Assembly: GCF_019890615.1 (NCBI RefSeq)
Contig: NZ_JAINVZ010000001.1
Coordinates: 310,001 to 374,000 of the forward strand
From: Streptantibioticus parmotrematis
GTDB taxonomy: Bacteria; Actinomycetota; Actinomycetes; Streptomycetales; Streptomycetaceae
Direction of reading: 5' to 3'
DNA: 64,000 nt
Shown: positions 4,925 to 11,653 of the stretch, in pieces
How the letters are laid out: every line of letters begins with the position of its first letter
How positions within the stretch are numbered: position 1 is the first letter of the stretch
Notes under the pieces: model-generated
What the model saw: the letters and a program-made list of their open reading frames with translations, nothing else
Databases searched by the model: none
What the model was told of the DNA's origin: nothing
Program-made: the position numbers and the translations under genes

Positions 4925-4950
4925 ACCGGCAGGAAAAACAAGCGAGTTGG

Positions 4951-4980
4951 CGGCACGTCACGAGTGTGACGTGCCGTTTT
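4951..4980 (+). terminator. Rho-independent terminator after the molybdenum hydroxylase operon
   Basis: A perfect 11-bp inverted repeat (CGGCACGTCAC / GTGACGTGCCG, 4951-4961 and 4966-4976) with a 4-base loop is followed directly by TTTTCT. It lies 27 bp after the catalytic-subunit stop. Confidence 0.9.
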
Positions 4981-5160
4981 CTCGTGCGTGTTTCCGTTGT
5001 GCTTTCAAATGAGCCGCGATTTACGTCACTTGCCGACCGGTAAATGAACGTCAAACAAATATTTTCCCCGGTCACCCGCTGGACCATTTGCGGGATGGGT
5101 CGAGGTGCGTTCCACTGGACGAGTAAGCGAAACCGCACTTCCCACTTAGGGGATGGTTGC

Positions 5161-5352
5161 ATGTTCTCCGAGGAATCCGTGGTCCGGGACGTCGCCCAGG
5201 ACATCGACATCGACCTCGAAGCCGCCCTGAATCCCGCGGAAGCGGAAGGGACCTTCCGGGACACCCGTGAATGCGCCGCCTTGGCGCTGATCGGCGGCCA
5301 GGGCGCGCTGCTCCTGTCGCCTCCGACTCCTCGGCCCACCAAGAAGGGCTGA
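5161..5352 (+). CDS. Small peptide, candidate RiPP-like precursor
   Basis: This 63-residue peptide is the first gene of a five-gene operon. Its N-terminal two thirds are acidic and helical-looking (SEESVVRDVAQDIDIDLEAA), then comes a single-Cys stretch (TRECAALALIGGQGALLL) and a Pro/Thr/Lys-rich end (SPPTPRPTKKG). An acidic leader, a hydrophobic Gly-containing C-terminal part and adjacent enzymes of unknown type suggest a ribosomally made, modified peptide. I recognise no named family. GGGGATGG lies just upstream of the ATG at 5161; an in-frame ATG at 5044 would add 39 poorly conserved-looking residues without a clear ribosome-binding site. It could instead be a small partner protein of the downstream genes. 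Confidence 0.6.
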   Translation: MFSEESVVRDVAQDIDIDLEAALNPAEAEGTFRDTRECAALALIGGQGALLLSPPTPRPTKKG

Positions 5353-5364
5353 CGGGGGACTCGC

Positions 5365-6072
5365 ATGAGTCAGTCAGGCCTGCCCCCGCTGACGGGCGCG
5401 GTGCGTGACCTGGCACACGAGGTGGTCTCCGCCCTCCGGGGCGGGGGCCACCTCGCTGGGAGCACGGCCCTCGCGGACGACGAACTGGGACTCGCCGCGG
5501 TACGGGTGCTCGGCGCCGACGTGCTGCTGCCCGCCACCCTCGCCGGCTACTCGCTGTCCCCCGAACGGGTGGCCGCTTTCCGTACCGCGACCCTGGCCTT
5601 CCCCGCCGCCCCGGGCGCCGCGCCGGTCACCGCATGGAGCCACTGGGGCATGCGGCGCGCTCTGCGCACCCTGAGCGGCCCCGACGAGGACCCGGCGCTC
5701 CCCGACACCGGTGAACCCGGCGCCTCCTGGCTGCACTCCCTGCCTTGGCAGCGGTTCACCCACCAACTGGCCGTACTCGGCGCCCTCGCGCTGCCCGGCC
5801 TGCCCAGCGAGGTCGCCACGACCGCGGCGCTGCGGCCGGTGGACCTCGCCCGCGGCTTCGTACGGGCGGTACGCCGCAGGGACTGGCTGCAGGCCGCCGG
5901 TGCCGCCCGCTGGCTGGCACTGCTCGACGGCGTCCCCGACACCCTCGGCCTCGACACCGGCCTCGACTTCGTGCTGCTGATGAGCGACGACGACCCCCGC
6001 GTCGCCCTCCAGGCGCACGCCGCCCGGCACATCCGCGACGAACGGCTGCTGGACGAAGGACTGCGCGCGTGA
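5365..6072 (+). CDS. Hypothetical protein in the DUF6895/serine hydrolase operon
   Basis: The 235-residue protein has no family I recognise. It is mostly alpha-helical by composition, rich in Ala, Leu and Arg, with no signal peptide or clear membrane segment. Stretches such as WLHSLPWQRFTHQLAVLGALALPG and DLARGFVRAVRRRDWLQAAGAARWLALLDG look like helical repeats. It begins 12 bp after the small peptide gene, with GGGG a few bases before the ATG, and ends overlapping the next gene's GTG by four bases. It is therefore very probably made together with the two DUF6895-like proteins and acts in the same process. Confidence 0.75.
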   Translation: MSQSGLPPLTGAVRDLAHEVVSALRGGGHLAGSTALADDELGLAAVRVLGADVLLPATLAGYSLSPERVAAFRTATLAFPAAPGAAPVTAWSHWGMRRALRTLSGPDEDPALPDTGEPGASWLHSLPWQRFTHQLAVLGALALPGLPSEVATTAALRPVDLARGFVRAVRRRDWLQAAGAARWLALLDGVPDTLGLDTGLDFVLLMSDDDPRVALQAHAARHIRDERLLDEGLRA

Positions 6073-7037
6073 CCGCGCCGTACGCCGACGAGGTCGCCCG
6101 CGCCGCGCTGCGCTGGGTGCGCGGCCACCGGGACGACTTCGCGCTCCCCGCCGACGTCACCGACCCGCGCACCCCGGTGGACCGCACCCTCAAACCGCTC
6201 GGCGAACTGGCCCAGTTGTGCCTGTCCATCCGCCGCGCCACCCCACCGGACGACGAACGGCACCACGTGGCGGCCGAGCTGGTCGACTTCGCGTGGCGGC
6301 AGACCGACGACGGCGCCCTCTTCCTCGACCTGCTGCGCGCCGAGCCGTTCGCCACCTACCCGCTGGAGATCTACGCGGCCTTCGCGGAAGCGGGGCTGCG
6401 CCACCCGGAGTTCGAACGGCTCGCCGGCGCCGTGCTGCGCACCCGCAACTGGCGGGCCACGGAACAGGACCCCAACCGGCGTCTCGGCATCCTCAACACC
6501 GAACGCCGCGGCGGCTTCCCGCGGACCGCCGACCCGGCCGAAGCGCTGGAGCGCACCTGGCTCGGCGCGCTGCCCGAGCCCTGGTCCTTCGAGCGTCCCA
6601 GCGGCTACGCGCTCACCCACACCGTCTTCCACCTCACCAACTGGGGTGCCGCGCCGCACGCCGTGCCCGACGACCTCGCGCGCTACCTCGGCACCTGGCT
6701 GCCCGCCTGGACCGACGGCTGCCTGGAGGACCAGCAGTGGGACCTGGGGTGCGAACTGCTCGCCGTGGCCGCGAGCCTGCCCGAGCCGTCCGACCCGACA
6801 CCCGAGACCGCGGGGGCGGCACGCGAGTCCGACGAGAGCGTGTGGGCCCGGATCGCCGAGGCCCAGGACGAGCAGGGCGGCCTCCCCGAAGTCGGCGGCA
6901 GGCCCAGGGACTTCACCCACTGCTACCACTCCACCCTGGTGGCCGCCTTCGCCGCCACCCTCACCACTGAGCGGACGGCCCCGCCGCCGCGCACGGCTCC
7001 GCTCGCCACCGAACCGCTGGACGGAGCACGCACATGA
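6069..7037 (+). CDS. DUF6895-like protein, copy 1
   Basis: The 322-residue protein is paralogous to the next gene product. Shared blocks are DR(T)LKPLGELAQLC near the N-terminus, RTWLGALPEPW, ALTHTVFHLTNWG (about residues 185-197), YLGTWLPAW, WDLGCELLAV and, near the C-terminus, CYHSTLVAAFAA. The His residues in THTxFH and YH are the best candidates for metal or catalytic ligands. I place it in the DUF6895 group from memory; no function is known to me. There is no signal peptide. The GTG start overlaps the upstream stop and the stop overlaps the next ATG (ATGA). This copy carries an extra Pro/Thr-rich tail after the last shared block. Confidence 0.75.
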   Translation: MTAPYADEVARAALRWVRGHRDDFALPADVTDPRTPVDRTLKPLGELAQLCLSIRRATPPDDERHHVAAELVDFAWRQTDDGALFLDLLRAEPFATYPLEIYAAFAEAGLRHPEFERLAGAVLRTRNWRATEQDPNRRLGILNTERRGGFPRTADPAEALERTWLGALPEPWSFERPSGYALTHTVFHLTNWGAAPHAVPDDLARYLGTWLPAWTDGCLEDQQWDLGCELLAVAASLPEPSDPTPETAGAARESDESVWARIAEAQDEQGGLPEVGGRPRDFTHCYHSTLVAAFAATLTTERTAPPPRTAPLATEPLDGART

Positions 7038-7954
7038 CCAGCACCCGGCTCATCCACGGCGTGGGTCTGCGGGCCCTGGAATGGCTGCACGCGCGCCGCG
7101 ACGGATTCCGGCTGGAGCCCGACGCCGATCCCGAGGTCGGCCTGATGGACCGCTTCAAGCCCATCGGTGAACTCGCGGTGATCTGCGGGGTCATCTTCCG
7201 CGAGGGCGTGGCCGGTTCACGGCAGTCACAGCTCGCCCGGCAACTGCTCGACCACGTCTGGCGCGACACCCTCGACGGCGGCCGGATGCTGGTCGAGGGC
7301 GCCCGCACCGAACCGATCTCCCCGATCCCCTTCGAGGTCTACCTGCCGTTCCGCGAACTGGGCTACGAACAGCCCGACATCGAGCGGGCCACCCGGCTCA
7401 ACCACCGGCTCGGCAGCTGGTCCGCCGTGGAGGTGCTGCCGGTCAGGCGCCTGGGTCTGTCCGCCTTCCAGCGCCGCTTCGGCCTGCGCCCAGAACCCGG
7501 CGTCGACGAGGCCACCGCCCGCACCTGGCTGGCCCGCACCCCGGAGCCGTGGACGGTCGAGGGCCACATCGCGTACGACATCACCCACACCGTCTTCCAC
7601 CTGACCGACTGGGGCGAGCGGCCGGACCGGCTGCCGCCGCACATCGCCGGCTACCTGGCCGACTGGCTGCCGGTGTGGCTGGACGACTGGCTGGAACTGC
7701 GACGCTGGGACCTGCTCGGCGAACTCCTCGTCGTCGACGCCTGCCTGCCCCGGCCCACCTTCGACGAAGCCGCGTGGGAAGGCTTCGCCGCCGCCCAGCA
7801 GCCCGACGGCGCCATGCCCGCGCTGCGCGAGATGCCCGAGGGCGAGCCCGACGACCTCTTCGACCTCGTCTACCACCCCACGCTCGTCGCCGCCTTCGCC
7901 TCCGCGTTGGCCCTGTCTCGCTCGCTGTCCGCGCTGACGCCCGAGCCGTCGTGA
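7034..7954 (+). CDS. DUF6895-like protein, copy 2
   Basis: The 306-residue protein is homologous over its full length to the preceding one, with the same ordered motifs: LMDRFKPIGELAVIC, RTWLARTPEPW, DITHTVFHLTDWG, YLADWLPVW, RRWDLLGELLVVDACLP and VYHPTLVAAFASA. The copies are well diverged outside these blocks, so the duplication is old and both appear to be under selection. They may form a heterodimer. It is translationally coupled on both sides (ATGA at the start, GTGA at the end). The function is unknown; the conserved His and Trp positions argue for an enzyme or a metal- or cofactor-binding protein. Confidence 0.75.
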   Translation: MTSTRLIHGVGLRALEWLHARRDGFRLEPDADPEVGLMDRFKPIGELAVICGVIFREGVAGSRQSQLARQLLDHVWRDTLDGGRMLVEGARTEPISPIPFEVYLPFRELGYEQPDIERATRLNHRLGSWSAVEVLPVRRLGLSAFQRRFGLRPEPGVDEATARTWLARTPEPWTVEGHIAYDITHTVFHLTDWGERPDRLPPHIAGYLADWLPVWLDDWLELRRWDLLGELLVVDACLPRPTFDEAAWEGFAAAQQPDGAMPALREMPEGEPDDLFDLVYHPTLVAAFASALALSRSLSALTPEPS

Positions 7955-9024
7955 GCACGACCGCGGTCCGGACGGCGGCGGGGGAGCCGACCGGGGACGA
8001 CGACCCGGACCACCTGCTGGAGCGGGCGGTCGACGCGGTCGACGCGCCCGACGTCGTCTTCGCCCTGTCCGCCGACGGCGCCCGCCGGGTACGACAAGGC
8101 GGCACCGCACCCGCCCCGCCCGGCGGACGCGACCGGCTGCGGTACGAACTCGGCTCGGCCTCCAAGCCGTTCGCCGGTCTGCTGCTCGCCCGGCTCGCCA
8201 CCACCGGCCGCGTCGCCTACCACCAGCGCGCCGCGACACTGCTCGACCCGGGGCGGCGGCACGGCGGCGTCGACCGCGTCACGCTGACCCACCTGATCAC
8301 GCACACCTCGGGACTGCCCGGCATGCCCGCCGACTTCTACCCGCAGGCGCTGCCGCGCTGGTCGACCGACCCCTACTCCGGATATCCCGCGCACCGCGTC
8401 GTCGCCGCCTTCCTGCGCGCCCGGCCCCGGCACCGCCCCGGCGCGCGCTGGCGCTACTCCAACTTCGGCGCCTCCGTCCTCGGCCACACCCTGGCCGCCG
8501 CCACCGGCACCGCGTGGGAGGAACTCCTGACCGCCGAGGTGCTCGCGCCGCTGGGTCTGCGCGACACCGCGCTGCGGCCGTCGCCCGCCACGGGCAAGGA
8601 CGCCGTGGGACACCGGCGCGACGGGAGAACCACGCTGCCCCCGCTGGACGTGGCGGGCTTCGCGGCGGCGGGCGCGGTGCGGGCGACGCCGTACGACATG
8701 CTCGCCTTCCTCGAAGCCCATCTGCGGCCGGACAGCACGCCGTTGGACTCCGCGCTGCGGGCCGTGCGCCAACCGCTGCTGCGCCGCGGGTTCGGCCGCC
8801 GTGAGGTCCACACCCTCACCTGGTTCCAGCACTCCACCGACCACGGGCCGGTGTACTTCCACTGCGGGGCGACCAGCGGACAGCAGGCGTTCCTGGGCTT
8901 CTGCCCGGCCACCGGCACCGCCGTCGCCGGCGCCTGCACCCGCCGCTTCCGCACGAGCGACGCCTTCGTCCCGACCGCCTACGGGCTGCTGCTGGACGTC
9001 GCGCGGGCGGTCCCCACGCCGTGA
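7951..9024 (+). CDS. Beta-lactamase/penicillin-binding-protein-type serine hydrolase
   Basis: The 357-residue protein has the class C beta-lactamase fold motifs. The nucleophile motif is in GSASKPFAGLLLARL (SxxK, about residues 68-71), the Tyr motif is YSNFG (YxN) and the third motif HCGATSG replaces KTG. THTSGLPGMP is the usual loop after the first motif. No signal peptide is present, so it probably acts in the cytoplasm and is not an antibiotic resistance enzyme; related proteins are esterases, D-amino-acid amidases or peptidases. As last gene of the operon, overlapping the DUF6895-like copy 2, it may cleave or transfer an acyl or peptidyl group in maturation of the small peptide. This is inference. 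Confidence 0.88.
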   Translation: MSTTAVRTAAGEPTGDDDPDHLLERAVDAVDAPDVVFALSADGARRVRQGGTAPAPPGGRDRLRYELGSASKPFAGLLLARLATTGRVAYHQRAATLLDPGRRHGGVDRVTLTHLITHTSGLPGMPADFYPQALPRWSTDPYSGYPAHRVVAAFLRARPRHRPGARWRYSNFGASVLGHTLAAATGTAWEELLTAEVLAPLGLRDTALRPSPATGKDAVGHRRDGRTTLPPLDVAGFAAAGAVRATPYDMLAFLEAHLRPDSTPLDSALRAVRQPLLRRGFGRREVHTLTWFQHSTDHGPVYFHCGATSGQQAFLGFCPATGTAVAGACTRRFRTSDAFVPTAYGLLLDVARAVPTP

Positions 9025-9028
9025 GCCG

Positions 9029-10441
9029 TCAGGCGTCCAGCTTCAGTTCCGTCGAACGGCCCGTCAGCTTGCGGACCAGCAGGATCGCGATGCCGATCAC
9101 CAGCCAGCACGAACCGCCGATCTGCGCCTTGGAGTCGGCGTTGTAGAGCACGTAGCCGATGATGGCGAAACCGATCAGCGGCACCACCAGGTGCATGCCG
9201 TAGGTGTGTTCGCGCCTGCGCACCAGGAAGTAGAACATCACCGACACGTGCAGCATCAGGAACGAGAAGAGCGCACCGAAGTTCACCAGCGACGACAACA
9301 GCCCGACCTGCCCGACCAGTCCGAGCCCCAGGCCCAGACTGATCACGGCGACCAGCAGCACCGCCCGCTCCGGCACCTTCCGGGTGGGATGCACGTGGGC
9401 CAGGAACCGCGGCAGCTGGCCGTCGCGTGCCATCGAGAACAGCAACCGGGAGGTCGCGGCCTGCGCCGCCAGGGAGTTGGCGACGGCGGCGGCCAGCGCG
9501 CTGGAGACCGCCACCACGTCCTTGAACCACACGCCGCCCGCGATCCGCGCCACGTCGTAGAACGCGGTGTTCTCCGCCGCCTGGTTGGGCAGCGAGGTGC
9601 GGCCCGGCAGCAGCAACGCCGCCAGATACGTCTGCACGACGAACAACGCGGCCACCAGGCACAGCGACAGCAGCGTCGCCCGCCCGACCACCTTCCGGCC
9701 GCCGCGCACCTCCTCGGCGAGGGTGGAGATGGCGTCGAAGCCGAGGAACGACAGCGCCGCCACCGACAGCGCGGAGAAGACCAGGCCCACCGAGAAGACG
9801 TGCGGGTCGTAGAAGGGCGTGGTGGTCCAATGGGCGCCGTTCTTGCCGTCGTTGATCGCGATGACGCTCAACACCACGAACATCGCCAGGATGATCAGTT
9901 CCGCCAGCAGGAAGAGCTTGTTCATCTGCGCGGTCGTGCGGATGCCCAGCATGTTCACACTGGTGTTGAACACCACGAACACGACGATCCACAGCCACTG
10001 CGGCACCCCGCCGATCACCGACTGCAACGCCACCGCACCGGTCACGTACAGCAGCGTGGGCACCAGCAGGTAGTCCAGCAGGATCGCCCACCCGGCGAGG
10101 AACCCCGCCTCCGGCCGCAGCCCGCGCCCGGCGTACGCGTAGACGGATCCGGCGATGGGAAACGCCTGCGACATCTCGCGGTAGCTCAGCGCGGTGAACA
10201 CCATCGCCACCAGGCCGATGACGTAGGTCAGCGGCACCATGCCCTTCGCCGTGTCGAAGACGACGCCGAAGATGGCGAAGGGCGCGATCGGCACCATGAA
10301 GACCATGCCGTAGACCAGCAGGTCGCGCAGGCCCAGCGTTCTGCGCAACTCCTGCTCGTAGCCGAACCGCTCCAGCGACTCGTCGCCGCCCTGGCCCTGC
10401 GGACGCGGCCGGCCGGCTGCCTCGTGGTCTGACTCGCTCAT
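9029..10441 (-). CDS. APC family amino acid/polyamine permease
   Basis: The 470-residue integral membrane protein has about 12 hydrophobic segments beginning near residue 40 (LLVYGMVFMVPIAPFAIFGV). It has the APC signatures SYREMSQAFPIAGSVYAYAGRGL in TM2-3 and FLGFDAISTLAEEVRGGRKVVGRA after TM6. The family imports or exchanges amino acids or polyamines across the cell membrane using ion or substrate gradients; the substrate is not evident. The ATG at 10441 follows GGGGAG. It converges on the serine hydrolase gene with a 4-bp gap and diverges from the nuclease gene at 10563. Confidence 0.92.
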   Translation of the reverse strand: MSESDHEAAGRPRPQGQGGDESLERFGYEQELRRTLGLRDLLVYGMVFMVPIAPFAIFGVVFDTAKGMVPLTYVIGLVAMVFTALSYREMSQAFPIAGSVYAYAGRGLRPEAGFLAGWAILLDYLLVPTLLYVTGAVALQSVIGGVPQWLWIVVFVVFNTSVNMLGIRTTAQMNKLFLLAELIILAMFVVLSVIAINDGKNGAHWTTTPFYDPHVFSVGLVFSALSVAALSFLGFDAISTLAEEVRGGRKVVGRATLLSLCLVAALFVVQTYLAALLLPGRTSLPNQAAENTAFYDVARIAGGVWFKDVVAVSSALAAAVANSLAAQAATSRLLFSMARDGQLPRFLAHVHPTRKVPERAVLLVAVISLGLGLGLVGQVGLLSSLVNFGALFSFLMLHVSVMFYFLVRRREHTYGMHLVVPLIGFAIIGYVLYNADSKAQIGGSCWLVIGIAILLVRKLTGRSTELKLDA

Positions 10442-11422: not shown

Positions 11423-11653
11423 TCAGAAGAAGTCGCGCTCGACGATCTCCTCGCGCTCGATGACCTCTTCGCCGCCGAAGAGACCGCCGAGGAAGCCGCC
11501 GCGCTCCTCCACGACGGTCTCCCGCTCGACGATCTCCTCGCGGCCGAAGAACCCACCGCGGCGCTCGACGACCGTCTCGCGTTCGATGATCTCCTCCCCG
11601 CCGAAGAACCCGTCCCGCTCGATGATCTCTTCGCGCTCGTAGTACTCACGCAC
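11423..11653 (-). CDS. Small Glu-rich repeat protein
   Basis: The 76-residue protein is built from about four imperfect repeats of the form (R/E)EEIIERETVVERRGGFFG. Charged helical units (EEIIERE, EEIVERE, EEVIERE) alternate with hydrophobic GGFFGG or GGLFGG turns. It has no signal peptide and no cysteines. The pattern suggests amphipathic helices that self-assemble or bind a membrane. The GTG start at 11653 has GAGGAA about 7 bases upstream. I do not recognise the family; similar short proteins occur as unannotated genes in streptomycetes as far as I recall. Codon use fits real coding sequence. The nucleotide repeats make it prone to unit gain and loss. Confidence 0.7.
   Translation of the reverse strand: MREYYEREEIIERDGFFGGEEIIERETVVERRGGFFGREEIVERETVVEERGGFLGGLFGGEEVIEREEIVERDFF

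Follow-up and report, generated by a model that had tools for sequence, protein, structure and literature searches.

A five-gene module with two DUF6895 proteins and an S12-type serine hydrolase as a candidate ribosomal peptide pathway of Streptomyces and related actinomycetes

Introduction

The lasso-peptide epimerase MslH has a calcineurin-like fold. The SurE-type enzymes among the penicillin-binding-protein-type (PBP-type) thioesterases are serine enzymes of the same superfamily as the S12 hydrolases, and HxG is the third catalytic motif of S12-type enzymes; the amidohydrolase 3wwx, alkaline D-peptidase and the R61 DD-peptidase are secreted. MslH is described as a metal-dependent epimerase (MS-271; PMC10406935). 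PBP-type thioesterases, SurE among them, couple an N-terminal L-residue with a C-terminal D-residue (PMC11735501). ClbP, a D-amino peptidase of family S12, sits in the membrane with its active site on the periplasmic side (PMC9889268), and 3wwx is identified in PMC10241514 as the D-stereospecific amidohydrolase from Streptomyces sp. 82F2. A paper cited in PMC13352647 (Shi et al., ACS Catal. 2026) names a DUF6895 protein in its title as a lasso-peptide epimerase. Here we describe a module of five + strand genes at 5161-9024 of the window, which is the whole 64,000-nucleotide stretch of DNA that was analyzed (Streptantibioticus parmotrematis, contig NZ_JAINVZ010000001.1, positions 310,001 to 374,000). 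The genes encode an acidic 63-residue peptide, a protein that we call P2, two DUF6895 proteins and an SxxK serine hydrolase. A literature search, with most subscription journals outside its scope, gave no description of this five-gene module.

We think it somewhat probable that the module is a pathway for a ribosomally synthesized and post-translationally modified peptide (RiPP) without the class-defining enzymes of the classes considered, in which DUF6895 would make D-residues and the S12 enzyme would cut or cyclize the peptide. We lean this way because the genes keep a fixed order and are inherited together, the peptide is conserved and the catalytic motifs are intact; because the peptide type tracks the number of DUF6895 proteins; because DUF6895 also adjoins radical SAM genes with an aroma-sacti peptide, and LanB/LanC; and because the list of similar folds includes the sugar epimerases 5zig and 1fp3.

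Results

The module and its parts are listed below. Three four-base overlaps (6069-6072, 7034-7037 and 7951-7954) link the last four genes, and 12 bases separate the stop of the peptide gene from the start of P2. A terminator-like hairpin closes the upstream gene and sets the module apart; the 65 bases around it (4936-5000) have a predicted fold of -33.9 kcal/mol.

5161..5352, + strand: 63-residue precursor-like peptide (direct reading of the open reading frame; homologue profiles; dN/dS, the ratio of nonsynonymous to synonymous substitution rates)
5365..6072, + strand: P2, 235 residues, all-helical, without a Pfam or NCBIfam family (AlphaFold model; co-occurrence with DUF6895)
6069..7037, + strand: DUF6895-1, 322 residues, GTG start, D1 clade, probable peptide epimerase (PF21836, E = 6.8e-89; conserved polar residues; tree)
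7034..7954, + strand: DUF6895-2, 306 residues, D2 clade, probable peptide epimerase (PF21836, E = 2.2e-87; model; fold matches)
7951..9024, + strand: S12-type serine hydrolase, 357 residues, GTG start (PF00144, E = 4.3e-46; SxxK, YxN and HxGxTxG)
4949..4978, + strand: terminator-like hairpin, 13-bp stem, loop GAGU, then a U-run, 3' of the upstream molybdenum-oxidoreductase gene
5149..5156, + strand: ribosome-binding-like site GGGGATGG, 5' of the peptide gene (sequence)

In a number of peptide homologues GDG is encoded before the start (by eye), in agreement with the same ribosome-binding-like DNA. Above the Pfam cut-offs the five proteins contain DUF6895 twice and Beta-lactamase (in the hydrolase) and nothing else, and none of the five matched an NCBIfam family above cut-off (in the case of the hydrolase, among the best 25 of 46 matches). 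The original prediction had described five co-directional genes behind a strong terminator, four-base overlaps among the last four, an acidic peptide, a second product of no recognized kind, two DUF6895-like proteins and an SxxK hydrolase, and all of this was borne out. Its remark that DUF6895 is without a known role needs amending, as at least one member has a reported role by the title in PMC13352647.

The peptide has a conserved acidic N-terminal part, a Cys, a variable Gly/Leu-rich stretch and a conserved SPPTPRPxKK tail. Residues 1-37 have a charge of -8, residues 38-52 (CAALALIGGQGALLL) a charge of 0 and the tail SPPTPRPTKKG a charge of +3; no Pfam family matched the peptide. Within the window's subfamily the flanks ALAL and LLLSPPTPRP are largely fixed, and the few residues that they enclose vary by species, a pattern like that of RiPP cores. 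Across the GGGLLLAGLLLIS subfamily this whole region hardly changes.

Scanning species genomes with DUF6895-1 yielded 41 loci (numbered L here), those with names coming from Streptomyces and Actinacidiphila. The peptide was present in 38 of them by profile search, and the order peptide, P2, DUF6895, DUF6895, hydrolase was kept in 36 of these 38, L013 and L014 agreeing up to their contig ends. Among the remaining three, the contig of L012 begins inside P2, L045 is fragmented and L039 shows a lone DUF6895. Presence counts are from six-frame searches with profiles built from members of the same sets, and therefore speak to presence and order, not to independent discovery. Gene calling missed some genes, among them the DUF6895 of L150, L151, L161, L162, L164, L166 and L184, and the N-terminal part of the window's P2.

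For the dN/dS comparisons identical sequences were dropped, leaving 69 of 82 peptides of type A and 30 of 42 peptides of type B (belonging to a sister module, below); type C, with three seeds, was left out. Species were unweighted, with some start codons assigned by rule. The median pairwise ratio was 0.45 for type A, with values below 1 in 99% of 2313 pairs (0.1<dS<2), and 0.54 for type B (below 1 in 98% of 428 pairs). The peptide of L059, missed by tblastn, was found by a peptide search of 100 genomes and was included. Against its near relative in L008 the window's peptide had dN 0.080 and dS 0.297 (ratio 0.27), the other module genes giving ratios of 0.15-0.46. The peptide frame is conserved at the protein level, under purifying selection. 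These data bear on the explanation that the genes are chance neighbors, the peptide being an open reading frame artefact 5' of unrelated metabolic genes. A lone frame of 63 residues is weak evidence, and this one is open over 102 codons. The explanation is nevertheless refuted by the 69 distinct type A sequences with dN/dS mostly below 1, by the fixed position and order in 38/41 loci and by the analogous peptides of the sister module, and we regard its probability as negligible.

The search of 100 genomes, the window's own and its relatives, gave 15 with a match to the 63-residue peptide, its own included and one lying outside the family (E = 0.008). Across 394 genomes of the window's family, taken as Streptomycetaceae from the genera of the named loci, PF21836 was found in 217 (215 above cut-off) and P2 in 200; 195 had both, 22 DUF6895 only, 5 P2 only and 172 neither (Fisher p = 7e-79, a value that overstates independence because the species are related). 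From the 22 genomes with DUF6895 only, G461, G528 and G557 were left out of the inspection, and L171 (G564) had no DUF6895 by profile. Phylum-wide, 6 of 296 genomes carried DUF6895 (5 in the window's family), as did 32 of 374 genomes of the class, 14 of these outside the family. Outside the family the module was found with a called peptide at L186, L187 and L189 and with a weak six-frame profile match to the peptide at L184; no peptide was called at L188. The module occurs once in the window's genome, which has no DUF6895 genes beyond its two. The module is real, conserved and widespread. The original prediction, that the peptide is a precursor on which the other proteins act, was supported. 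It survived both tests set for it beforehand: DUF6895 does not mostly occur without a small peptide gene, and the frame is conserved as protein. The genes also stay together, by locus order and by the shared presence of P2 and DUF6895 (195/217). The prediction did not include the recurrence of DUF6895 with other peptide modifiers, the sister module with one DUF6895 or the likely D-residue logic.

Two further sets of 20 loci each were picked, not at random, for single or extra DUF6895 copies. P2 was present in 23 of these 40, and a recognizable peptide of type B or C in 21 of the 23. All 21 loci with type B or C peptides have one DUF6895, and 37 of 38 loci with type A peptides have two. Of these 21 loci of the one-DUF6895 sister module, 20 also hold the hydrolase, as the last gene after peptide, P2 and DUF6895; at L132 a diverged Gly/Leu-rich peptide is encoded directly 5' of P2 (by eye). 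Types A and B mostly have a Leu/Gly/Ala run followed by Ser-Pro (in a few Ala-Pro) and a Pro/Lys tail. In type C a comparable run leads into LLS, with a Pro two positions further on and an additional conserved C-terminal stretch. Types B and C were initially chosen by a hydrophobic-tail filter, so the run is partly built in; its conservation across species is not. To judge by sequence, the core of type C peptides may lie at the C-terminus. A second conserved block, EPVED...G.VQNLA-A--F, follows the Leu/Ala run in L133, L135, L137, L186 and L187.

DUF6895-1 and DUF6895-2 matched PF21836 over the whole domain with 298.5 and 293.5 bits (curated cut-off 23.8). The AlphaFold model of DUF6895-2, based on 110 sequences, had a predicted local distance difference test score (pLDDT) of 94.9. 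In a second-look structure comparison the best match was 1w6k (Z 16.1, root-mean-square deviation (rmsd) 3.4, 249 residues aligned). Squalene-hopene cyclases and GH88/GH105 barrels matched at Z 15-16, cellobiose 2-epimerase 5zig at Z 14.8 (rmsd 3.9, 276 aligned) and N-acylglucosamine 2-epimerase 1fp3 at Z 14.4 (rmsd 3.9, 275 aligned). The model fits an (alpha/alpha)6-type barrel, a fold that cannot choose a reaction. Y103, R138, D226, E230 and H281 were invariant in 110/110 sequences, and H185 and H189 were found in 109. K42, E46, Y103, R138, H185, H189, D226, E230 and H281 are kept throughout the D1 (n = 43) and D2 (n = 34) paralogues, which differ from each other at positions 40, 86, 96, 97, 279 and 282; in this comparison single-copy proteins were grouped by locus, L140 and L150 among them. 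Shared invariants with differing adjacent positions would be expected of two active enzymes with a different choice of site. That one paralogue is dead was considered and is not supported, the invariant residues being kept in both. In a FastTree phylogeny, with supports taken after re-rooting, D2 grouped with the single-copy set (support 1.0), D1 formed a single, weakly supported clade (0.40) and the set linked to radical SAM was separate (0.997).

The two DUF6895 proteins are probable peptide epimerases, by analogy, because of the reported function of another DUF6895 protein, the fold and the genome context. A RiPP pathway in which DUF6895 performs other chemistry (e.g. cyclization or a lyase-type reaction) and the S12 enzyme is an ordinary leader or tail peptidase would agree with a fold list headed by oxidosqualene/squalene-hopene cyclases, GH88/GH105 and lyase barrels. 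It would also agree with a genome context that backs peptide modification in general, and it draws on the fact that the epimerase report is known by its title. Epimerization, as worded in that title, is however the one reported DUF6895 activity that we found, and the D-preferring relatives of the S12 enzyme fit epimerization better; we consider such other chemistry unlikely.

The hydrolase carries the catalytic residues of S12/class C beta-lactamase-like enzymes, with SxxK, YxN and, as third motif, HxG. S69, K72, Y169, H304, G306 and G310 are present in 42/42 aligned homologues and N171 in at least 90%. A single-sequence search of solved relatives gave class C beta-lactamases first (5evl, 2.1e-14), then, among others, 3wwx (2e-13), alkaline D-peptidase (9.2e-10), the R61 DD-peptidase (5.5e-9) and ClbP (2.4e-8); with a family profile the best 60 solved sequences were nearly all beta-lactamases. 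The enzyme is a probable D-residue-specific peptidase or transpeptidase/cyclase, a preference that we propose because its relatives include the D-stereospecific amidohydrolase, alkaline D-peptidase, the R61 DD-peptidase and ClbP. A simple hydropathy cut (no signal-peptide program) detected a hydrophobic N-terminal segment in 0/75 homologues, and the hydrolase is intact and apparently cytosolic.

That location bears on a reading in which the peptide does not become a secreted product but serves as a small regulatory or membrane-associated protein, with a different substrate for the enzymes, for example cell-wall D-peptides or carbohydrate. The Leu-rich stretch of about 8-12 residues and the basic tail could contact a membrane, and no conserved exporter was found in the 41 loci (crude gene calling). 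Some members of the peptide family hardly change between species, unlike many antibiotics, and presence in about half of the sampled family genomes suggests a housekeeping-like role. Against these points, homologues without a hydrophobic N-terminal segment should not reach the cell wall, the peptide type changes together with the number of enzymes, and DUF6895 recurs beside other peptide modifiers. We regard this reading as improbable.

P2 had no Pfam or NCBIfam family above cut-off. Its AlphaFold model (pLDDT 91) is helical throughout, with no strands. The RiPP recognition element is a winged-helix fold with beta strands, and P2 as such an element was rejected on the absence of strands from the model. 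P2 as a degenerate DUF6895 was not supported either (profile comparison probability 0.4%). A Foldseek search with the P2 model gave nothing at E<=0.001. The best second-look match, 7qsj (Z 9.9, rmsd 4.0, 208 aligned), lies in the range common for helical proteins, and we therefore make no claim on the fold. Searches of solved sequences with the P2 and DUF6895 profiles gave nothing convincing. Residues 163-182 form a near-invariant Arg-rich stretch in a protein of net charge -5; by its sequence this stretch would suit the acidic N-terminal part of the peptide. P2 is a possible precursor-binding or scaffold protein.

Peptide modifiers are found repeatedly beside DUF6895, though not at every locus. 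At nine loci (L152-L160) two distant DUF6895 proteins flank a third gene, one of the two being fused to its neighbor in the gene call at L158. In L152 and L155 the flanked gene is a radical SAM by Pfam, with RiPP maturases as the nearest NCBIfam families, below cut-offs; in L154 the short peptide scores above cut-off as an aroma-sacti-domain protein. L205, L206 and L212 have the same radical-SAM-type layout (by eye); L207-L209 have the spacing of two DUF6895 genes alone. This type of locus (L152-L160, L205, L206 and L212) also holds MFS genes, weakly glycosyltransferase-like genes and a large regulator-like protein (e.g. L152:6869-15275), with a 63-residue aroma-sacti-domain peptide where inspected. 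Judged by its genes, it would be another peptide pathway with DUF6895. At L161 a distant DUF6895 lies beside LanC and LanB (by Pfam), and L162, L164, L210 and L211 are look-alikes by eye; these five loci have LanB-like, LanC-like and ABC-transporter-like genes. An NHLM-type exporter pair lies upstream of DUF6895, one gene away, in L039 and L140, which have the same gene set and are probably one region in duplicate. Similar-looking peptides of 70-75 residues precede a distant DUF6895 by one or two genes at L165:9241-9453 (LDFLRTSGLVDLG) and L191:8538-8765 (ADALQQAGIVNFG), in genomes of two different families.

Downstream of the module, the gene at 9029-10441 runs in the opposite direction. The ten nearest called neighbors are a TetR regulator, three molybdenum-hydroxylase subunits, an amino-acid permease, a Mut7-C RNase protein, a small repeat protein without a family, a GDSL lipase, an alcohol dehydrogenase and an aminotransferase; nothing resembling peptide modification was found among them. 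Across the 41 loci the commonest non-module neighbor families occurred in 13/41 and 12/41 loci (crude gene calling), on the opposite strand in the examples inspected. A 76-residue Glu/Arg-rich repeat protein (REEIIERD/ERETVVER with GGFFG) without a Pfam family is encoded at 11423-11653 on the - strand of the window, and also in L008 (13391-13621).

Discussion

In the RiPP pathway that we favor, the 63-residue peptide would be the precursor. P2 would bind or present it, and this is the weakest step. DUF6895-1 and DUF6895-2 would then invert alpha-carbons at different sites in or near the Leu/Gly-rich stretch, giving D-residues. The apparently cytosolic S12-type hydrolase would react with a D-residue to give an acyl-enzyme, probably close to the conserved Leu-Ser-Pro boundary, and would remove the tail or close a ring.

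Several observations weigh against this proposal, which is drawn from genes and models. The epimerase role leans on a title concerning another DUF6895 member, likened by family name. The DUF6895 model had no Foldseek match in the PDB at E<=0.001 (best E 0.02-0.1), and the alpha/alpha barrel is common to terpene cyclases, glycosidases and lyases, many of which outrank the epimerases in the fold list. Among solved structures the hydrolase is nearest to class C beta-lactamases, so that its D-specificity stays a sequence-based proposal. P2 is without an assigned role, and it occurs without DUF6895 in five genomes; none was found in the 20 kilobases inspected at each of L215-L217. L148 has P2 and DUF6895, with peptide and hydrolase not found, and L144 has the module without the hydrolase. 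At L213 DUF6895 stands without P2, peptide or hydrolase, and no nameable context was seen at L150, L151, L165, L185, L190-L194, L202-L204 and L214 (several known by profile matches only). No exporter, immunity gene or regulator conserved beside the module was found in the crudely called genes of the 41 loci.

If the proposal is true, about half of the sampled family genomes hold a peptide pathway expected to escape genome-mining tools keyed to class enzymes, and DUF6895 is a general family of ribosomal-peptide modifiers used by several pathways. It would provide small enzymes for gene-encoded D-amino-acid peptides, and the role of a very widespread gene set of unknown function would become directly testable. 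The broad conservation suggests a function in the producer's own biology, not as an antibiotic alone. A bolder version is a new RiPP class, common in Streptomyces and related actinomycetes, in which paired (alpha/alpha)6-barrel epimerases would put D-residues into a Leu/Gly-rich core and a cytosolic S12 enzyme would close the peptide head to tail through an acyl-enzyme formed at a D-residue, a ribosomal counterpart of SurE. This we offer tentatively and consider doubtful.

How does the module compare with known systems? A short precursor gene is conserved beside putative modifying enzymes (38/41 loci; dN/dS), which is the general mark of a RiPP pathway. Neither the five proteins nor the ten nearest neighbors include a Pfam family of the lasso protease (B) or Asn-synthetase-like cyclase (C), a radical SAM maturase as in sactipeptides and ranthipeptides, LanB/LanC, LanM or LanKC, or a YcaO family; the original prediction had already stated this for radical SAM, lanthipeptide and YcaO genes. 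The module is a candidate RiPP-type pathway that matches no class among those considered, and a precursor with tailoring enzymes is a known plan.

By family name the module resembles the system of the DUF6895 lasso-peptide epimerase, which by its title acts on a ribosomal peptide as well; compared with that system, likened by title, the module has a doubled DUF6895, P2 and an S12-type hydrolase, and no lasso families. MslH would be alike in inverting an alpha-carbon of a ribosomal peptide by acid/base chemistry, if DUF6895 does so; MslH is metal-dependent and has a calcineurin-like fold, whereas DUF6895 models as an alpha/alpha barrel. The substrates of the SurE group are non-ribosomal peptides, unlike the 63-residue ribosomal peptide, and SurE (6KSU) was not seen among the best 60 of 84 solved relatives of the hydrolase. 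With the S12 enzymes that act on D-residues (3wwx, alkaline D-peptidase, the R61 DD-peptidase and ClbP) the module's hydrolase shares SxxK and YxN. ClbP, too, belongs to a pathway with a peptide product, but a non-ribosomal one, and it is membrane-bound, whereas the module's hydrolase has no hydrophobic N-terminal segment. The aroma-sacti/StsA-related radical SAM loci (NCBIfam NF045560 and NF045559) differ in having a radical SAM protein, MFS and weakly glycosyltransferase-like genes, another peptide and a separate DUF6895 clade; like the module, they combine two DUF6895 proteins with a short peptide.

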